Positions 1,810 through 11,829 of a stretch of DNA of 59,681 nucleotides are shown piece by piece. Both the position numbers and the translations under genes were made by a program. The stretch is taken from contig DAHUYL010000145.1 in the NCBI GenBank assembly GCA_027315255.1, forward strand, positions 1 to 59,681, written 5' to 3'. The notes under the pieces were generated by a model. The model was not told the DNA's origin, ran no database searches, and saw only the letters and a program-made list of their open reading frames with translations. The stretch comes from Solirubrobacterales bacterium (lineage in GTDB: Bacteria; Actinomycetota; Thermoleophilia; Solirubrobacterales; Solirubrobacteraceae). Each line of letters opens with the position of its first letter. The first letter of the stretch is position 1.

Positions 1810-2949
1810 GTGTCGACACGATGGTTCGTTGCGCTTGTTGCTGTTGGCGCGATCGCTCTCGCCGGCTACGGCGAGTCGGGTGGCGCTCGTGGGTCGACGG
1901 CGGCGGCTGCGCCATTGAAGTCAGTGAGCGCTGCAGCTCCATTGCTGGCGGAGCTGCGGACGGTCTCGACGGTGACATCGACTGTCACAGCGAACGGTGA
2001 CGTCAATCCATACGGACTCGCGATCGTGCCTCGGACGAGCGGCATGCTCCACGCAGGCGATCTGCTGGTGAGCAATTTCAATGACAAGGCAAACGCTCAG
2101 GGCACAGGTACGACGATCGTGCAGATCACGCCTGCTGGAAAGCGGTCGCTGTTCGCCAAGCTGAGCGCTGGCGGCCTGCACGGAGGTTGTCCTGGCGGTG
2201 TGGGTCTTACAACAGCGCTGAGCGTGATCCCTGGCGACTATGTGATCGTGGGCAGCCTGCCGACGACGAACGGCAAGTCGGCGACCGCCGAGACCGGGTG
2301 CCTGATCGTGCTCGACGCGAACGGTGACCCGGTCGGCACTATCTCGGGCGCGCTGATCCAGGGCCCGTGGGACATGACGGCAGTGACCAGGGGCTCGACC
2401 ACGACTCTGTTCGTGAGCATGGTGCTGAACGGCGGCGCGGCAAATGGCATCCATACGGTGGACAGCTCGACCGTCGTCCGCATCCGGCTCTCGTCGCAGA
2501 ATGCGCAGACGCCAAAGGTGCTCGGCGAGCAGGTGATCGCGAACGGGATCCCATGGCGCGACGACCCGAACGCGCTCGTGATCGGCCCGACCGGTGTCGC
2601 GCTTGCACCCGACGGCACCCTGTACCTCGCGGACACGCTCGACAACCGCATCTCTGCGATCCCGCAGGCGATGGCGCGCACGACGCCGGCCGGTGACGGG
2701 GGTACGACCGTCTCCGAGGGCAACTGGCTCAAGCAGCCGCTTGGGCTCGCGCTGTCACCGGACGGGGACATCATCACGACCAACGCCGGCGATGGAAACC
2801 TCGTCGAGACCAGCCCGGCGGGCCGCCAGCTGCTCCGGCGAACGGTCGACACGAAGACCGGTGCCGGATCGCTGTTCGGTCTGGTGGTGGCACCCGGCGG
2901 GATCTATTTCGTCGATGACGGCGACAACACCCTGACGTTGCTGCACTGA
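1810..2949 (+). CDS. Secreted NHL/SMP-30-type beta-propeller protein
   Basis: 379 residues from GTG 1810, chosen because AGGAGG (1797-1802) sits 7 bases upstream; an upstream in-frame ATG at 1729 lacks a site. A signal peptide (residues 1-19) is followed by repeats typical of NHL or SMP-30/gluconolactonase-like propellers, such as GPTGVALAPDGTLYLADTLD and LGLALSPDGDIITTNAGDGN. Export is therefore expected. The signal ends LAGY-GESGG, where lipoproteins of this class have LAGC, so the lipid-anchor cysteine appears replaced by tyrosine (codon TAC at 1867-1869). The substrate or ligand is unknown. GC content is slightly lower than in the neighbours. Confidence 0.8.
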   Translation: MSTRWFVALVAVGAIALAGYGESGGARGSTAAAAPLKSVSAAAPLLAELRTVSTVTSTVTANGDVNPYGLAIVPRTSGMLHAGDLLVSNFNDKANAQGTGTTIVQITPAGKRSLFAKLSAGGLHGGCPGGVGLTTALSVIPGDYVIVGSLPTTNGKSATAETGCLIVLDANGDPVGTISGALIQGPWDMTAVTRGSTTTLFVSMVLNGGAANGIHTVDSSTVVRIRLSSQNAQTPKVLGEQVIANGIPWRDDPNALVIGPTGVALAPDGTLYLADTLDNRISAIPQAMARTTPAGDGGTTVSEGNWLKQPLGLALSPDGDIITTNAGDGNLVETSPAGRQLLRRTVDTKTGAGSLFGLVVAPGGIYFVDDGDNTLTLLH

Positions 2950-2975
2950 CGCGCGGCAGCCACGGTTGGCAGGCG

Positions 2976-3006
2976 GCTGGGAGCGCGGCCGGTCCGCGCT
3001 CCCAGC
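2976..3006. terminator. Bidirectional hairpin terminator
   Basis: A 13-bp perfect stem (GCTGGGAGCGCGG at 2976-2988, its complement at 2994-3006) with a 5-base loop lies between convergent genes ending at 2949 (+) and 3024 (-). No U-tract is present, as is usual at this GC content. Confidence 0.65.
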
Positions 3007-3023
3007 ATGGATGGTGCGTAGCC

Positions 3024-3395
3024 CTACCCCTCCGAGCGTGTCTCCACGGCACCCCGGTCGACGATCGGACGGACCTCGATCGATCCGCCGAGTCGCGCAG
3101 ATGGGATCCGCGCCGCGAACGCGATCGCCTGGTCAAGGTCGGGCACGTCGATCACGTAGTAGCCGCCGAACACCTCCTTGGTCTCGGCGAACGGCCCGTC
3201 GGTCAGCAGCGTCTCGCCGCCCTGCACCCGGACCGTCGTCGCCGTGTCGACCGGTTGCAGCTGCGCTCCGCCTCGCACGGCGGGATCCTGTGTGATCGGC
3301 CCGTATTCGTATTCGGCCATCACCCGCTGAAACTCGTCGGGGCCGAGCGCCTCGTACGAGCCCGGCTTGTCGTAGATCAAGACCGCGTACTGCAT
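3024..3395 (-). CDS. YCII/DGPF-domain protein
   Basis: 123 residues from ATG 3395, preceded by AGGAGG with 5-6 bases spacing. It starts MQYAVLIYDKPG and carries the diagnostic DGPFAETKE motif and GGYYVIDVPDLDQAI of the YCII-related (DGPF) family, a small dimeric alpha/beta fold. The family is often linked to ECF sigma factors of the ECF41/SigJ-like groups, but no such gene adjoins it here. Biochemical role unknown. A longer open frame extends to 3464 but lacks a ribosome site. Confidence 0.88.
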   Translation of the reverse strand: MQYAVLIYDKPGSYEALGPDEFQRVMAEYEYGPITQDPAVRGGAQLQPVDTATTVRVQGGETLLTDGPFAETKEVFGGYYVIDVPDLDQAIAFAARIPSARLGGSIEVRPIVDRGAVETRSEG

Positions 3396-6089: not shown

Positions 6090-6298
6090 GCCCCTTCCGC
6101 GGCCGCTGACGCGCAGGGGCGCTCACGCCGGCGACCGGCCTGGAGAGCCGCTCGGAACCGGCGACCCTCACGCGGACACGGCCTAACCTGCGCCTGCGGC
6201 CCCGGCTACAGCCGATGCTGGAACCGAGCACCGGTCGCCGGCGTTTAAAACGGTGGATGCACGCGAGAGATGATGCGGACCGTGCCTGAGGGCGCGCG

Positions 6299-6805
6299 TT
6301 GAAGCGCGGGGGCTATGCCGCCTTCGAGGATTTCGCGCGCGAGGAATCGGCGAAGCTTCTGCGCACCGCATATCTGCTGGTGCGCGACCGAGAGCTCGCC
6401 GAAGACCTGCTTCAGACGACGCTGCTGCGTGTCTTTCGACGCTGGGACCGCGCCAAGGAGGCCCCGGCGGCGTACGCCCAGCGCGTGCTTCTCAATGCCT
6501 GCCGCGACAGCTGGCGGCTGCAGCGGCGCCGCCCCGACGAACAGGCGGCGAGCGCCGCCGAGATCGCCGAAGGAGCACCGACGACGGCCGGCGCCGATGT
6601 CGCGCTCGGCCGGCTGATCCTGCTGGACGCGCTGTCGGCGCTGCCGGTCGAGCACCGGGAGATCATCGTCTTGCGCTTCTTCCTGGATCTCTCGGTGCTG
6701 GAGACTGCCGCGCGGCTCGGGATCCCGGAGGGGACCGTCAAGTCCGCCACGCACCGGGCGCTGCACATCATGCGCTCAGCCCTTCTGACCCAATCGGAAA
6801 CGTAG
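6299..6805 (+). CDS. ECF sigma factor, SigE family
   Basis: 168 residues. Region 2 is visible as LLRTAYLLVRDRELAEDLLQ and FRRWDRAKEAPAAYAQRVLLN, and region 4 as LSALPVEHREIIVLRFFLD followed by AARLGIPEGTVKSATHRAL. This matches the SigE-family (SigE70-like) extracytoplasmic sigma factors common in actinobacteria. A TTG start is used because no ATG or GTG fits the frame upstream. The next gene begins 2 bases after the stop and encodes a membrane protein placed as a probable anti-sigma factor. The signal is unknown. Confidence 0.9.
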   Translation: MKRGGYAAFEDFAREESAKLLRTAYLLVRDRELAEDLLQTTLLRVFRRWDRAKEAPAAYAQRVLLNACRDSWRLQRRRPDEQAASAAEIAEGAPTTAGADVALGRLILLDALSALPVEHREIIVLRFFLDLSVLETAARLGIPEGTVKSATHRALHIMRSALLTQSET

Positions 6806-6807
6806 CC

Positions 6808-7509
6808 ATGTCCGTGATCGACGACGAAGAAACCGCCAGACTGCTGCGTGACGCCCTCCGCGAACTGACTGCGGAGCTGAGTCCGACGTCCGACCCGCTC
6901 GTCCGGGTGCACCGGTGGCGCCGGACGCGCCAGCGCGCTCAGGCCGGCCTCGCCGCAACCTGCGTCGCGGCGCTGGCTGCGATCGCGATCCTGATCACGA
7001 ATCGGGCAAACCAGGACAACCATGGTGCGACGGTGCTGCAGCTTGCGGGCTACACGTTCCGGCTTCCACGCGGCGCGCATGTGGCATCCGCCTCGCCGGC
7101 TGCCTGCGCGATGTCGGCGGTGCTCCTCTACAGGACGGGACCCGCCCCTCTCCCGACGGTCCCCAGCGAGCCCAAGGTCGCGAGCGCGGTCACCGCCCAC
7201 GGCGGCTGTGTGTCGATGCTGCTGAGCGCGCCGTATCAGGCCGGCGCGGAGCCACGCGTCGGCTGGGGTCCGGTCAGCGTTCACGCGATCACGATCGACG
7301 GCTTCAGCGGGACGCTCGGCACCTACGACTACGTCGGCCGCGCCACGACCAACGGCGTTCGTATCCCGAGCGGGACGCGGCGCCTCGTGATGACGCTCAC
7401 CCTCCCGTTCGCCACGCAGTATCGGGACCTGCAGGTCGCCGCTTCGGGCGTGAGCACGGCCGAACTGACGAAGATCGTCTCCTCCGGGCTGAACACGCCC
7501 GCGGGTTGA
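6808..7509 (+). CDS. Membrane protein, probable anti-sigma partner
   Basis: 233 residues. A charged cytoplasmic N-terminus (residues 1-45) precedes one membrane helix (QAGLAATCVAALAAIAILIT, about 49-68) and an exported domain of about 165 residues. No zinc-binding H-x3-C-x2-C is present. Position directly after the sigma gene and topology suggest it controls that sigma factor; this is inference, as no family motif is recognised. The exported part has two or three Cys and could sense redox or envelope state. Confidence 0.65.
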   Translation: MSVIDDEETARLLRDALRELTAELSPTSDPLVRVHRWRRTRQRAQAGLAATCVAALAAIAILITNRANQDNHGATVLQLAGYTFRLPRGAHVASASPAACAMSAVLLYRTGPAPLPTVPSEPKVASAVTAHGGCVSMLLSAPYQAGAEPRVGWGPVSVHAITIDGFSGTLGTYDYVGRATTNGVRIPSGTRRLVMTLTLPFATQYRDLQVAASGVSTAELTKIVSSGLNTPAG

Positions 7510-7602
7510 TTCGGACGTTCAAGCGACAGTTCCCGAAAGGATCCGGACCACCGACAGCACCGAGCGATCGACACTGAGCTCCCAGCGGAGCGGCCCGAGT
7601 TC

Positions 7603-7620
7603 CATGTGCATTGTCACATG
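7603..7620. repeat. Short dyad CATGTG-N6-CACATG
   Basis: A 6-bp inverted repeat with a 6-base spacer lies in the 271-base gap between the sigma/anti-sigma pair and the Cys-rich cassette, about 80 bases upstream of a sigma-70-like promoter. It may be an operator. Confidence 0.35.
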
Positions 7621-7698
7621 ACACTTGTCGCTGCACGCTTTCGTCCGTCCTGGTGTGACCCTTGCGCCGTTGACATGCCCGACTTTCACAGATTCGTA

Positions 7699-7728
7699 TT
7701 GACAGCCCGTCAGACCACTGACTATGGT
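7699..7728 (+). promoter_or_regulatory. Sigma-70-type promoter of the Cys-rich cassette
   Basis: A consensus TTGACA (7699-7704), an 18-base spacer and TATGGT (7723-7728) lie about 50 bases upstream of ATG 7781. A second TTGACA at 7670-7675 with TCGTAT at 7694-7699 could be an alternative promoter. This is the clearest promoter in the window. Confidence 0.65.
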
Positions 7729-7780
7729 TCCGCTCCGTCGGCCACAGGCTCGAGCGGACCGGGTAACGGTCAGGAGGACG

Positions 7781-8155
7781 ATGTCACACGGGTTCAATGT
7801 CGGGGTCGGCGAGACTCGGCGCGCGGTGCTTCGGCGCTACGGCTCGCTCGGCCTGGCGGCAACTTTCGGCGCTGGTCTGACGACCCTGTTCCGTGGTCGC
7901 CCGGCGCGGGCGGCGGCGATTCTGCCATCGCCCACCCAGCCACCATCCGCGATCATCGACGGAATCCCGACGTTCGGGCAGATGGGTCCGGACACTTGCT
8001 GCACGATCTGCAACGAGGCTCAACACCAGTGCGACCCGAGCGGGCACTGCGCCACAGGGCAGTGCTGCTATTACTGCAACGGCTGCGGCCTCGGCGGTTA
8101 CTACTGCATTGCCTCGGGCGGCTGCCAGTACACACAGGTTCGCATCTGCACGTGA
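7781..8155 (+). CDS. Tat-exported 12-cysteine mini-protein
   Basis: 124 residues from ATG 7781 with AGGAGG five bases upstream. A twin-arginine signal (ETRRAVLRRYGSLGLAATFG) ends near ARAAA. The mature part of about 75 residues has exactly 12 cysteines in patterns such as DTCCTIC, GQCCYYCNGC and GGYYC, and no tryptophan. The genes that follow encode MauE-like and MauD-like proteins. By family knowledge MauE and MauD form the six disulfides of methylamine dehydrogenase light chain (MauA), itself a Tat substrate with 12 Cys. This protein looks analogous in export, cysteine count and partners but cannot form the Trp-derived TTQ cofactor. Its function is unknown; a folded scaffold or redox/metal protein is possible. 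Confidence 0.82.
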   Translation: MSHGFNVGVGETRRAVLRRYGSLGLAATFGAGLTTLFRGRPARAAAILPSPTQPPSAIIDGIPTFGQMGPDTCCTICNEAQHQCDPSGHCATGQCCYYCNGCGLGGYYCIASGGCQYTQVRICT

Positions 8156-8168
8156 CCGGGATCGCGGA

Positions 8169-8783
8169 GTGAGCCTGATCTCCCTGAGCCTGCTGGGCGC
8201 GCGATGGGCACTCGCTTGCGTGTTCGTGCTCGCTGCCGTCGTGAAGCTGGGCCGGCCCGGCGAGTTCGCGGAGTCACTCATGCGATACCCGCTGCTCCGG
8301 GCACGGCTCGTCGTTCCGGTTGCGGTCGCGCTGCCGTGGCTCGAGCTGTCGCTCGGTGTCGCGCTCGCGGTCGGACTGGAGGTGGCGATCGCCGCACTGT
8401 CCTCCGCCGGTCTGCTGCTCGCATTCACAGCTGCCATGTCGGTATCGCTCGCACGGGGACGAACGTTCGACTGCGGCTGCGGGCTTCGCAGCGGGCCGTC
8501 GGAGCTGTCGTGGCGACTCGTGCTCCGCAACGTGGTGCTGGCCGCGACCGCGGTCGCGATCGCCGCGGGCCCGTCGGGCGATCTCGCGGCATCGGCAGGC
8601 TGGGCTCCGACACGCACACACCTCGGCGCGGCGACCAGCGTGATCGCGGTGCCGCTGTGCGTGCTGCTGGGCCTTGCCTGCCTGCGACTCGCCGAGCTCG
8701 TCCACCACGACCACCTCCTACCCGATCGGCCCGCGACGCGCCGAAGCCGCCGGCTTGCAGCGCTCGGCCAGAGAGCGAGCTAG
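8169..8783 (+). CDS. MauE/DoxX-like redox membrane protein
   Basis: 204 residues from GTG 8169, 13 bases after the mini-protein stop. Several membrane segments are visible (ARWALACVFVLAAVVKL, LVVPVAVALPWLELSLGVAL, VAIAALSSAGLLLAFTAAM, LGAATSVIAVPLCVLLGLACL), and the loop FDCGCGL has the paired cysteines typical of MauE. MauE is thought to pass electrons or disulfides across the membrane for maturation of a Cys-rich partner. The gene order mini-protein, mauE-like, mauD-like supports a dedicated maturation cassette. A longer open frame upstream overlaps the mini-protein gene and is not used. Confidence 0.8.
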   Translation: MSLISLSLLGARWALACVFVLAAVVKLGRPGEFAESLMRYPLLRARLVVPVAVALPWLELSLGVALAVGLEVAIAALSSAGLLLAFTAAMSVSLARGRTFDCGCGLRSGPSELSWRLVLRNVVLAATAVAIAAGPSGDLAASAGWAPTRTHLGAATSVIAVPLCVLLGLACLRLAELVHHDHLLPDRPATRRSRRLAALGQRAS

Positions 8784-8787
8784 CGCC

Positions 8788-9423
8788 TTGTCAACACCTT
8801 GGATCGTGCTGTTCGTGGCGCTGTGGCTCGCGGTCGTCGGGCTGCTCGTCCTGACGCTCGGGCTCAGCCAGCGGCTGGTCGCGCTCGAACGGGCCCGGGC
8901 CGCCCCCGAGACGCCGCCGCTCGACCTGCTGGGCGCCATCCCGCGGGTCGGAGAGCCGCTGCCCGATCTGCTCAGCGGGGGCCGGATCGTCTACCGGCCG
9001 GCCACCGTCGGCCGGACCCAGATCCTCCTGTTCCTGAGCTCGACATGCGCTCCGTGTCGCGAGCTCGCGGCCTCCCTGCACGGCGCACGGCGTGAGCGCC
9101 GGCGCGAGCTCGAGGGCATCGAACTGGTGGTCATCACCGATGCTGTCGGGGCGTTCGTCTACCAGGACGGGACCGACCGCCTGCTCGTCCAGAGCGATTC
9201 GGAGATCTCGAAGCAAGTCGGCGTCAAGGCGACCCCGACGGCGATCTCGCTCGACCGTGCCGGCCGGGTCTGCGGTGTCGGACTGCCGGGATCGGTCGAG
9301 GACGTGGCTCGGCTCGCGGGCACCTGCATCTCGGAGCGCCCGCTCGCGGTCGTGCGCAGCGAACCACTCGCCGCACCCGTCGGTGGCGCTCGTGTTCACC
9401 TGCCGAGGCGCAGGCGCCGCTAG
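8788..9423 (+). CDS. MauD-like membrane-anchored thioredoxin
   Basis: 211 residues from TTG 8788, four bases after the MauE-like stop; GTG 8806 is an alternative. An N-terminal membrane anchor (STPWIVLFVALWLAVVGLLV) is followed by a thioredoxin fold with active site STCAPCREL (CxxC near residue 84) and the cis-proline segment KATPTAISLDRAG. MauD-type proteins act outside the membrane on disulfides of a secreted partner, here presumably the 12-Cys protein. The C-terminus ends in a run of arginines. It converges with araD, with only one base between the stops. Confidence 0.82.
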   Translation: MSTPWIVLFVALWLAVVGLLVLTLGLSQRLVALERARAAPETPPLDLLGAIPRVGEPLPDLLSGGRIVYRPATVGRTQILLFLSSTCAPCRELAASLHGARRERRRELEGIELVVITDAVGAFVYQDGTDRLLVQSDSEISKQVGVKATPTAISLDRAGRVCGVGLPGSVEDVARLAGTCISERPLAVVRSEPLAAPVGGARVHLPRRRRR

Positions 9424-9424
9424 G

Positions 9425-10177
9425 CTAGGCTGGCTGACCGTAGTAGGCGCGCGGGCCGTGCTTGCGCTCGAAGTGCTTGCGACGCAGGGCCGGATCGAGC
9501 GCGGGGCTGCGGGGATCCAGCAGGGTCGTCAACGTCGCCAGTCGCGCGACCTCCTCGAGCGTGACCGCGCTGGCGACGGCCGCCGCCGCCGTGCGGCCCC
9601 AGCAGAACGGGCCATGCTGGCGCACGAGCGCGCACGGCAGCTCGGAGGGCCCGCGCGGCGCCACCACCTCGATCAGCGCCTTGCCGGTCGCCTCCTCGTA
9701 GCCCTCGTCGATCTCGGCTTCGGTCAGCTGCCGAGTCAGCGGGATCGGGTGCGGGCAGAGGTCGGCGTGGGTCGTGCCGAGCAGCGGGATCTCCCGCTCG
9801 GCCTGCGCCCACGCCGTCGCCCAGGTGGAGTGCGTGTGGACGATGCCGCCGACCTGCTCGAACGCGCGGTACAGCGCCAGGTGCGTCGGCGTATCGGTCG
9901 ACGGCCGCTTCTCGCCGCCGACCACCTTCCCCGACAGGTCGACGATCACCATGTCATCGGTGCTCATCGTGTCGTAGGCGACGCCGCTTGCCTTGATCGC
10001 GACGACCCCCCAGTCGCGGTCGATGCCACTGGCGTTTCCCCACGTGAGCGTCACGAGCCCACTCGCAGGCAGCGCCAGGTTCGCCTCCAGCACGTCCTGC
10101 TTGAGCCGATCGATCGCCGCTTGCCGCGTCCGGTCGGGCTCCGGCGACGAGGCGGGCGGCTGCGCGTCCGTGGTCAT
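9425..10177 (-). CDS. araD: L-ribulose-5-phosphate 4-epimerase
   Basis: 250 residues from ATG 10177, which overlaps the araB stop (ATGA). The class II aldolase/epimerase fold is shown by VTLTWGNASGID, STDDMVIVDLSGKVV, the metal-binding HTHSTWATAWAQ and the catalytic-site end segment KHGPRAYYGQ. It converts L-ribulose 5-phosphate to D-xylulose 5-phosphate, the last step of arabinose catabolism. Third gene of araA-araB-araD. Confidence 0.95.
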   Translation of the reverse strand: MTTDAQPPASSPEPDRTRQAAIDRLKQDVLEANLALPASGLVTLTWGNASGIDRDWGVVAIKASGVAYDTMSTDDMVIVDLSGKVVGGEKRPSTDTPTHLALYRAFEQVGGIVHTHSTWATAWAQAEREIPLLGTTHADLCPHPIPLTRQLTEAEIDEGYEEATGKALIEVVAPRGPSELPCALVRQHGPFCWGRTAAAAVASAVTLEEVARLATLTTLLDPRSPALDPALRRKHFERKHGPRAYYGQPA

Positions 10178-11829
10178 CCGGCGTGCTGCTCCGTGCGGAT
10201 CCGCTTGAGCCCGTGCAGCCACTCGGAGCGCGAGCGGCCGAGCACCTCGTAGAGCTCGCGATAGATCGCGTACACCCGGTCGTACGTGCGCTTGGCGGCG
10301 TCGTCCGGGGTGTAGGTCCGGGCGATCTCGGGCTTCAGCGCAGCGACGGCGGCACCGAGGTCGGTGAACGCTCCCGCAGCCAGCCCGCCGAACAGCGCCG
10401 AGCCGCGGGCCGGGATCTCGCTCGATGCGGCCACCGACACCTTCAGGCCGGTCGTGTCAGCGACCAGCTGCATCGTCAACGGGCTCTTCTCGGCGATCCC
10501 GCCGCAGGCGACGATCCGGTGCAGCGCCATCCCGTTCTCCTCGAAGTTGTCGATGATCCGGCGGTTGCCGAATGCGATCGACTCGAGCAGCGCGCGGTAG
10601 ATCTCGGACGGCGAGGAGTGCAGGCCCAACCCGAGGATCGCACCGCTGAGGTCGGCATCGGCAAGGATCGCCCGGTTGCCGTTCCACCAGTCGAGCGCGA
10701 CCAGGCCGGTGGCACCCGGGGCGATCCGGGCGGCAGCCCCCTCGTAGGCGGTGAACGGATCCTCGGCGTCTCCGGCGACGGTCCCGACGAACCAGGCGAG
10801 CATGTCGCCGACCGCCACCTGGCCCGCCTCGTAGCCGTACAGCCCTGGCAGCACGCCGTCGCGCACGACTCCGGTGATCCCGGGCAGGCGGATCTCCTTC
10901 GGGTGAACGACCATGTCGCAGATCGAGGTACCGACGACCATCACATACGCGCCCGCCTCGTCGACGCCGAGCGCGGGGACGGTGACCCACGCGTCGACGT
11001 TGCCTACCGCCACGGCCACCGATTCGGGCAGGCCCAGCCGCTTGGCGACCGACGGGCGCAGCGTCCCGGCGCGCGTCCCGATCGGGACGAACTCGGTGCC
11101 GAGCTTCTCCGTCGGGGCGTCGAACCCCGGATACGCGGCGGTGAAGTAATCGACGCTCGGGAAGCCCTCGTCGGGGGACCAGAGCGCCTTGAACCCGGCC
11201 GTGCTCGCGTTGCGAAGCCGTGCGCCGCTCAGCCACCAGACGATCCAGTCGGTCGCCTCGACATACGCGTCCGCCGCGTCGTAGACGTCACGGTCGTCGA
11301 GCCACAGCTCGATCAGCTTCGGGTAGTACCACTCTGACGAGATCCGGCCCCCGTACCGCGCGAGCCACGGCTCGCCGCGCTCGAGCGCGACCTCGTTGAG
11401 CCGGTCGGCAACCGGCTGGGCTGCGTGGTGCTTCCACAGCTTCGGCCACGCATTGCGGTTCGCCCGCCAGCGCTCCGAACAGCACAGCGGCTCGCCGTCC
11501 GATCCGACCGGAAGGACGGTGCACGAGGTGAAGTCGATCCCGATCCCGACGATCGCGCTCGGTGCAATCCCAGCCTTCCCGACCGCCTCGGGGACCCCCC
11601 GGAGGATCACCTCGCGCCAGTCGTCTGGGTCCTGCAGCGCCCAGTCGTGCGGGAGCCGCTCGCCGGTGACCGGCAGCTCGCGGTCGATCACCGCGCTGCG
11701 GTACGGAACGATCGCAACCGCCAGCTCCTCGCCGGAGTCGAGGTCGAGCACGAGCACCCTGCCCGACTCGGTCCCGAAATCGATCCCGACCGAGCAGCGC
11801 CGGCCGGTGGTTTCAGATGAGGCGCTCAT
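10174..11829 (-). CDS. araB: L-ribulokinase, FGGY family
   Basis: 551 residues. ATG 11829 has GGAGG nine bases upstream; a TTG at 11838 is less likely. CSVGIDFGTESGRVLVLDL is the phosphate-1 motif of FGGY sugar kinases and the C-terminal ATPase half has VACGGIAEKSPLTMQLVAD. The size and the arabinose context identify ribulokinase, which phosphorylates L-ribulose. It lies 56 bases downstream of araA and overlaps araD by 4 bases, so one operon is likely. Confidence 0.94.
   Translation of the reverse strand: MSASSETTGRRCSVGIDFGTESGRVLVLDLDSGEELAVAIVPYRSAVIDRELPVTGERLPHDWALQDPDDWREVILRGVPEAVGKAGIAPSAIVGIGIDFTSCTVLPVGSDGEPLCCSERWRANRNAWPKLWKHHAAQPVADRLNEVALERGEPWLARYGGRISSEWYYPKLIELWLDDRDVYDAADAYVEATDWIVWWLSGARLRNASTAGFKALWSPDEGFPSVDYFTAAYPGFDAPTEKLGTEFVPIGTRAGTLRPSVAKRLGLPESVAVAVGNVDAWVTVPALGVDEAGAYVMVVGTSICDMVVHPKEIRLPGITGVVRDGVLPGLYGYEAGQVAVGDMLAWFVGTVAGDAEDPFTAYEGAAARIAPGATGLVALDWWNGNRAILADADLSGAILGLGLHSSPSEIYRALLESIAFGNRRIIDNFEENGMALHRIVACGGIAEKSPLTMQLVADTTGLKVSVAASSEIPARGSALFGGLAAGAFTDLGAAVAALKPEIARTYTPDDAAKRTYDRVYAIYRELYEVLGRSRSEWLHGLKRIRTEQHAG

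Follow-up and report, generated by a model that had tools for sequence, protein, structure and literature searches.

The gene at positions 7781–8155 of contig DAHUYL010000145.1 (59,681 nucleotides of the Solirubrobacterales bacterium assembly GCA_027315255.1, forward strand; this whole stretch is called the window) encodes a small cysteine-rich preprotein with a candidate twin-arginine translocation (Tat) signal. It is followed directly by two genes related to mauE and mauD, whose products are known mainly for assisting tryptophylquinone amine dehydrogenases. Together the genes probably form a self-contained operon for the maturation of an exported, disulfide-rich mini-protein. The three genes lie in tight order on the forward strand within 1.7 kb, with intergenic gaps of 13 and then 4 nucleotides. 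In relatives the trio is likewise kept with a sigma factor gene, giving the locus the look of a self-contained factory for a heavily cross-linked secreted protein.

The preprotein has 124 residues and begins at an ATG with an AGGAGG sequence just 5' of it. The putative twin-arginine signal peptide (TRRAVLRR..., PARA site; 7781–7912) and its cleavage site were read by eye, without a signal predictor: the RR pair is at residues 13–14, a hydrophobic core is present, and cleavage between ARA and AA would fall after residue 44. TRR..LRR and PAR-A are invariant in 4 of 4 homologues; a Tat signal was also proposed in the initial annotation. The predicted mature mini-protein (7913–8155) has 12 cysteines, no tryptophan and a net charge of -3, the cysteine and tryptophan counts being those given before; its length is 80 residues rather than about 75. 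Twelve cysteines among 80 residues are far from expectation (binomial P 2e-11 against a background of 47 in 4869 residues, from 14 open reading frames (ORFs) in the first 19 kb of the window). The protein has no match in Pfam, NCBIfam or PHROGs, and comparison with solved chains gave nothing beyond noise, a phmmer match to rubredoxin at E 7.5 being noise as well. The AlphaFold2 model is weak, with a mean predicted local distance difference test (pLDDT) score of 57.9 and blocks of the cysteine part at 61–81; a Foldseek search with this weak model gave no match at E <= 0.001.

Both downstream genes are recognizable as relatives of the mau helpers. The first (8169–8783, GTG start) encodes a membrane protein with a conserved CxC motif (C102, C104) that matches positions 5–125 of the 128 in PF07291 (94.1 bits, E 1.1e-26, cut-off 27) and is thus a genuine member of the MauE family. 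This assignment relies on the Pfam profile, as a tblastn search with the window MauE against a plasmid collection that holds mau-type clusters gave no match at E 1e-3. The second (8788–9423, TTG start) encodes a membrane-anchored thioredoxin with a CAPC motif and a single N-terminal transmembrane (TM) segment at residues 6–24. Its match to TIGR02661 (29.3 bits, E 5.4e-7) lies under the curated equivalog cut-off of 188.6, so we call it MauD-like and not a MauD equivalog. A typical MauD has an N-terminal TM anchor, a CxxC motif and a conserved proline late in the thioredoxin domain; all three are present when the window protein is aligned with four MauD proteins, which agrees with the earlier reading of this gene. 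For these comparisons, partner proteins were taken from four of five mau-type clusters. The window MauE shares 26–35% identity and the CxC motif with the four MauE proteins, and the MauD-like protein shares 21–23% identity, the N-terminal anchor and CxxC with the four MauD proteins. In the annotated records, all five clusters have MauE, MauD (annotated as redoxin in one of them) and the light chain as consecutive genes.

Relatives of the cysteine-rich protein are few. A single-protein query against 232 genomes of the order matched 11 at E <= 0.01, the window's own among them. Outside it, matches were convincing in two genomes of the same genus (E 4.7e-14 and 9.9e-13) and weak in the remaining eight (E 0.0017 to 0.009). 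An alignment query against 399 genomes of the class retrieved 8 at E <= 0.001. These were the own genome and the two just mentioned, together with five in which the match was weak and partial (E 8e-5 to 5e-4). Across 396 genomes of the phylum, the own genome alone matched at E 1e-4. No relatives were found in plasmids, in viral contigs (alignment query) or in genome_contigs (single-protein query).

The two genomes with clear homologues, Conexibacter sp. S30A1 (NZ_CP097127.1) and a Solirubrobacterales metagenome assembly, contain three intact relatives. In each, MauE lies directly downstream of the cysteine-rich gene and is followed by MauD, so that the trio is kept in 4 of 4 intact loci, the window included. 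Over the full preprotein length, the relatives' proteins share 43–44% identity with the window protein, and they have no tryptophan in their mature parts; the mature charge is -7 and -8 in the two that were counted. Each has 10 cysteines, compared with 12 in the window protein, and 'exactly 12' is thus not a feature of the family. The ten can be matched to window cysteines by order and spacing, the spacings agreeing exactly or to within one or two residues; an alignment program placed nine in common columns and left the end ambiguous. C77 and C99, the two cysteines present only in the window protein, are in separate loops. Gain or loss of a single disulfide would be expected to alter the number by two, as seen here; a change of two metal ligands would fit likewise. 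Neither free loss of cysteines nor loss of linkage to mauE and mauD, both named beforehand as grounds for giving up the proposal, was seen. One relative also carries an extra, decayed copy (locus L062), in which a remnant of the cysteine-rich gene (approximately 1447–1785) is followed at once by a MauE-like remnant (1751–2080); the match was strengthened by the alignment.

By eye, conjugation-like genes adjoin the module in the relatives' loci (L017, L018 and L019), and a resolvase-like fragment lies upstream in L018 and L019. The VirB4-like ATPase of L017 resembles NCBIfam TraC (E 8e-25, under its cut-off) and a VirB4-like protein in the PDB (E 2.5e-5), and has no match in Pfam. With a VirB4-like gene as neighbor, the relatives' copies are perhaps carried on mobile elements. 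No homologue of the L017 conjugation-like genes is present in the window.

Upstream of the trio lies a gene pair that was overlooked in the initial annotation (6299–7509). It consists of a SigE-family RNA polymerase sigma factor (6299–6805; TIGR02983, E 2.9e-40, 137.8 bits, cut-off 141.55) and a single-TM protein (6808–7509), both on the forward strand. The window sigma factor is the top match in its own genome to a relative's sigma factor, with 136 bits versus 56.8 for the runner-up. The sigma genes of the four loci are orthologous; in the relatives the sigma gene and the single-TM gene are located after MauD, and in the window before the cysteine-rich gene; by eye, a transposase-like gene separates MauD from the sigma gene in L018. 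The window single-TM protein has its TM segment at residues 46–64 and two cysteines, 100 and 134, in the outer domain beyond it. Its counterparts in the relatives likewise have two outer-domain cysteines each and are weakly similar to it (best E 5e-5 in a two-protein comparison). The protein has no Pfam or NCBIfam match; gene place and layout suggest an anti-sigma role. Elsewhere in the window, about 5 kb upstream of the module, is a gene for an NHL-repeat, beta-propeller-like protein (1810–2949).

Two kinds of promoter-like site are found at the locus. GGAACC-N16-CGTT, at 6220–6245 (forward strand) just 5' of the sigma gene, is a motif that we take to be of the extracytoplasmic function (ECF) type. 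Each of the four loci, two of which are near-identical, has one strict copy of it immediately 5' of the sigma gene, and 34 other loci totaling 326,310 bases have one copy in all. Judged by these sequences, the sigma gene is probably autoregulated and the sigma factor is a conserved companion of the module. The cysteine-rich gene itself is preceded by a housekeeping-type promoter, TTGACA-N18-TATGGT (7699–7728, forward strand), in line with the consensus promoter first annotated. It was found once in positions 7000–10500, against 0.0 expected in shuffles of that region. TTGAC-N17/18-TA[TC][GA] occurs less than 200 bases upstream of the cysteine-rich gene in the three relatives, and thus at all four loci. 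With a promoter of this type, the link between the sigma factor and the cysteine-rich gene may be indirect.

How does the locus compare with the methylamine dehydrogenase (MADH) system of Paracoccus denitrificans (NC_008688.1)? In both, relatives of MauE and MauD are tightly ordered with a substrate that has a Tat-type signal and dense cysteines. The window substrate differs from MauA in being shorter, lacking a tryptophan for tryptophan tryptophylquinone, and being unrelated in sequence: hhalign gave a probability of 2.6% with the signal and 0.1% with the mature parts, which lends no support to a sequence relation with MauA. It has no match to the light chain profile (PF02975) in the Pfam search, and this profile found nothing in 61 genomes, the own genome included, or in 14 control genomes, whereas the Paracoccus plasmid record was matched at E 3.6e-54. 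The heavy chain profile likewise matched the Paracoccus record and nothing in the own genome or the 14 control genomes. MauG was matched in 2 control genomes and not in the own genome. The earlier statement that heavy chain and MauG are missing from the neighborhood is thus borne out genome-wide, as likely absence rather than proof, since the assembly (231 contigs) is 92.2% complete. The window locus has a sigma/anti-sigma-like pair instead.

To place the family among other MauE loci, we scanned MauE-centered stretches mechanically for ORFs in which an RR motif and a hydrophobic core are accompanied by 8 or more cysteines within 80 residues. MauE is present in 25 of 28 genomes of the genus at E 1e-3, in 22 of them over the cut-off. 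The genus scan comprised 38 loci and 443,238 bases (the 37 over the cut-off plus one below it, the own genome's second locus; the 9 further matches below the cut-off were excluded). Eighteen Tat-signal, cysteine-rich ORFs were found, one per locus, all within 1 kb of MauE and on the same strand. Many belong to one family and are therefore not independent, and because the stretches are centered on MauE, the background is sequence a few kb away. The phylum scan covered the best 40 MauE matches outside the own genome from a longer list (312,279 bases). Fourteen ORFs passed, 12 of them within 2 kb of MauE, one per locus. The two distant ones are the second mini-protein of locus L141 and an apparently wrong-frame ORF in L145. 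Two of the 12 near ORFs are unusual: one of 650 residues with 30 cysteines (L140) and one of 753 residues that spans MauE (L166).

By eye, the ORFs fall into the window family, a class with a PqqD-like part, a Tat signal and a cysteine-rich region, an 18-cysteine class (class C) that sometimes shares one ORF with MauE, a 10-cysteine class, and mini-proteins with 8–12 cysteines in L138 and L141. The mature parts of the window family, the 18-cysteine class, the 10-cysteine class and MauA show no convincing similarity (six pairs, highest probability 5.2%). Two apparent links to MauA came from the Tat region. For the 18-cysteine class, hhalign gave 91% at first and 5.2% after this region was cut off, and the claim was withdrawn; for the 10-cysteine class, 86.5% came from the Tat stretch alone and the mature part gave 0.9%. 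The 18-cysteine class belongs to no Pfam family (one stray match in 1 of 11 members), and its structure model is unusable (pLDDT 32.7). Because the Tat-signal, cysteine-rich ORFs come from several families with no detectable mutual similarity and lie mostly beside MauE, MauE and MauD look like a reusable folding module.

Several of these loci have features of their own. The second MauE locus of the own genome (L096, 5258–6322, reverse strand, contig C203 of G000) has a single ORF that combines a MauE-like membrane part, a Tat signal and an 18-cysteine domain; a MauD-like gene and a third membrane protein follow, and groEL/groES-like genes adjoin by eye. Similar 18-cysteine ORFs recur in the genus. 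In L063, L064 and L065, from genomes of the same genus, a PqqD-like part with a cysteine-rich tail lies directly beside MauE, with a Tat-like signal in L063 and L065; the L064 ORF missed the scan motif. PqqD is below the cut-off in two of the three members of this class and unmatched in the third. HPr-kinase-like and nucleotidyltransferase-like ORFs are seen by eye in MauE loci with PqqD-like ORFs (L066, L067 and L075). Locus L141, from an actinobacterium outside the class, has two different Tat-signal mini-proteins (2804–3055 and 6742–7083, with 10 and 8 cysteines) at one MauE/MauD-like locus.

From gene order, homology, conservation and promoter motifs we infer the following course of maturation. 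The preprotein would be directed to the Tat translocase by its RR signal and cleaved between ARA and AA. Outside the membrane, its 12 cysteines would pair to give as many as six disulfides: five core bonds common to the relatives and one between C77 and C99. The membrane-tethered MauD-like thioredoxin, through CAPC, may make or shuffle the bonds, and the multi-pass MauE, through CxC, may hold it in the right redox state. The SigE-family factor, probably autoregulated, and its membrane anti-sigma-like partner would be part of the module, and the product would be secreted or held at the wall.

A number of observations weigh against this interpretation. Apart from the own genome, just two genomes have clear homologues, and of their three intact copies two are near-identical. 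The TIGR02661 score far under the equivalog cut-off, together with the lack of a plasmid-borne MauE by tblastn, makes both partners distant relatives of the mau proteins. The structure prediction for the cysteine-rich protein is weak, and folding after export sits uneasily with the Tat system, which usually carries folded proteins. The scan found no Tat-signal, cysteine-rich ORF near MauE in 20 of the 38 genus loci and in 28 of the 40 phylum loci, which implies that MauE also has other partners. Of the 12 near ORFs in the phylum scan, at least 4 are on the strand opposite MauE.

The loci without a Tat-signal, cysteine-rich neighbor, about half of those in the genus scan, and the frequency of MauE in the genus would suit a chance neighborhood, in which MauE and MauD serve general envelope disulfide formation and the cysteine-rich gene is merely upstream. 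We consider chance very improbable, since the trio recurs in each of the four intact loci, at differing positions in the genomes, and Tat-signal, cysteine-rich ORFs are seldom away from MauE in the scanned loci. A protein of metallothionein or metal-cluster type that folds in the cytoplasm and is then exported by Tat in folded form, its thiols kept reduced by MauE and MauD, would accommodate both the density of 12 cysteines in 80 residues and the preference of Tat for folded, cofactor-loaded proteins. We regard it as quite unlikely: the family searches and the rubredoxin comparison give it no match, the known MauE/MauD case is a disulfide-bonded protein, and the cysteine number shifts by two, even if a two-ligand metal change would look alike.

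Alternatively, the product might be a secreted bioactive peptide, similar to a bacteriocin or to a ribosomally synthesized and post-translationally modified peptide (RiPP), with disulfides as its sole modification and release timed by the sigma pair. Streptomyces loci with mauE, and in one case mauD, beside precursors with at least 8 cysteines have been read as candidate RiPP clusters (PMC7794033), and the relatives' copies adjoin a VirB4-like gene, perhaps on mobile elements. The acidic mature parts are unlike cationic antimicrobials, and no adjacent immunity gene or transporter was noticed by eye, no search having been aimed at them. We consider this end use doubtful but possible, and it is compatible with a maturation operon. 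A broader proposal, somewhat unlikely as a whole, is that MauE/MauD form a general disulfide module recruited repeatedly by many unrelated Tat-exported, cysteine-rich proteins of Actinomycetota. Here it would be coupled to a self-activating sigma/anti-sigma pair whose outer cysteines could read the state of oxidative folding; the result would be a mobile disulfide factory that monitors itself and makes an acidic mini-protein. We treat the outer-domain cysteine pair as a lead only.

The general idea that MauE and MauD act on cysteine-rich precursors is already in print. In the part of PMC7794033 consulted, mauE occurs in three candidate decRiPPter families from Streptomyces, one of which also has mauD. 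The adjacent precursors have 8 or more cysteines, other mau genes are lacking, and a modifying role is proposed. That text notes earlier speculation that MauE forms disulfides in the MADH beta subunit and describes MauE/MauD chemistry as speculative or unclear. It mentions no Tat signal or sigma pair for these families, which are set beside the window family by description only. It was the one paper on point among the titles from a literature search that covered mostly papers outside subscription, and its consulted part has neither the window substrate family with its Tat signal and pairwise cysteine change nor the sigma link or the association counts. Similar in layout are the mini-proteins of L138 (the place of L109) and L141 (the place of L112) in other Actinomycetota, which have a Tat-like signal and adjacent MauE and MauD-like ORFs. 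With 42–51 mature residues (by eye) and 8–12 cysteines, they differ from the window protein in cysteine spacing and show no trustworthy similarity to it (E-values from a six-sequence comparison).

A minimal, cofactor-less substrate of 80 residues would allow a direct test of the role of MauE and MauD. More broadly, the survey suggests a reusable disulfide module for Tat-signal, cysteine-rich proteins in Actinomycetota, and such a module would bear on the passage of reduced or unfolded cysteine-rich chains through the Tat system.
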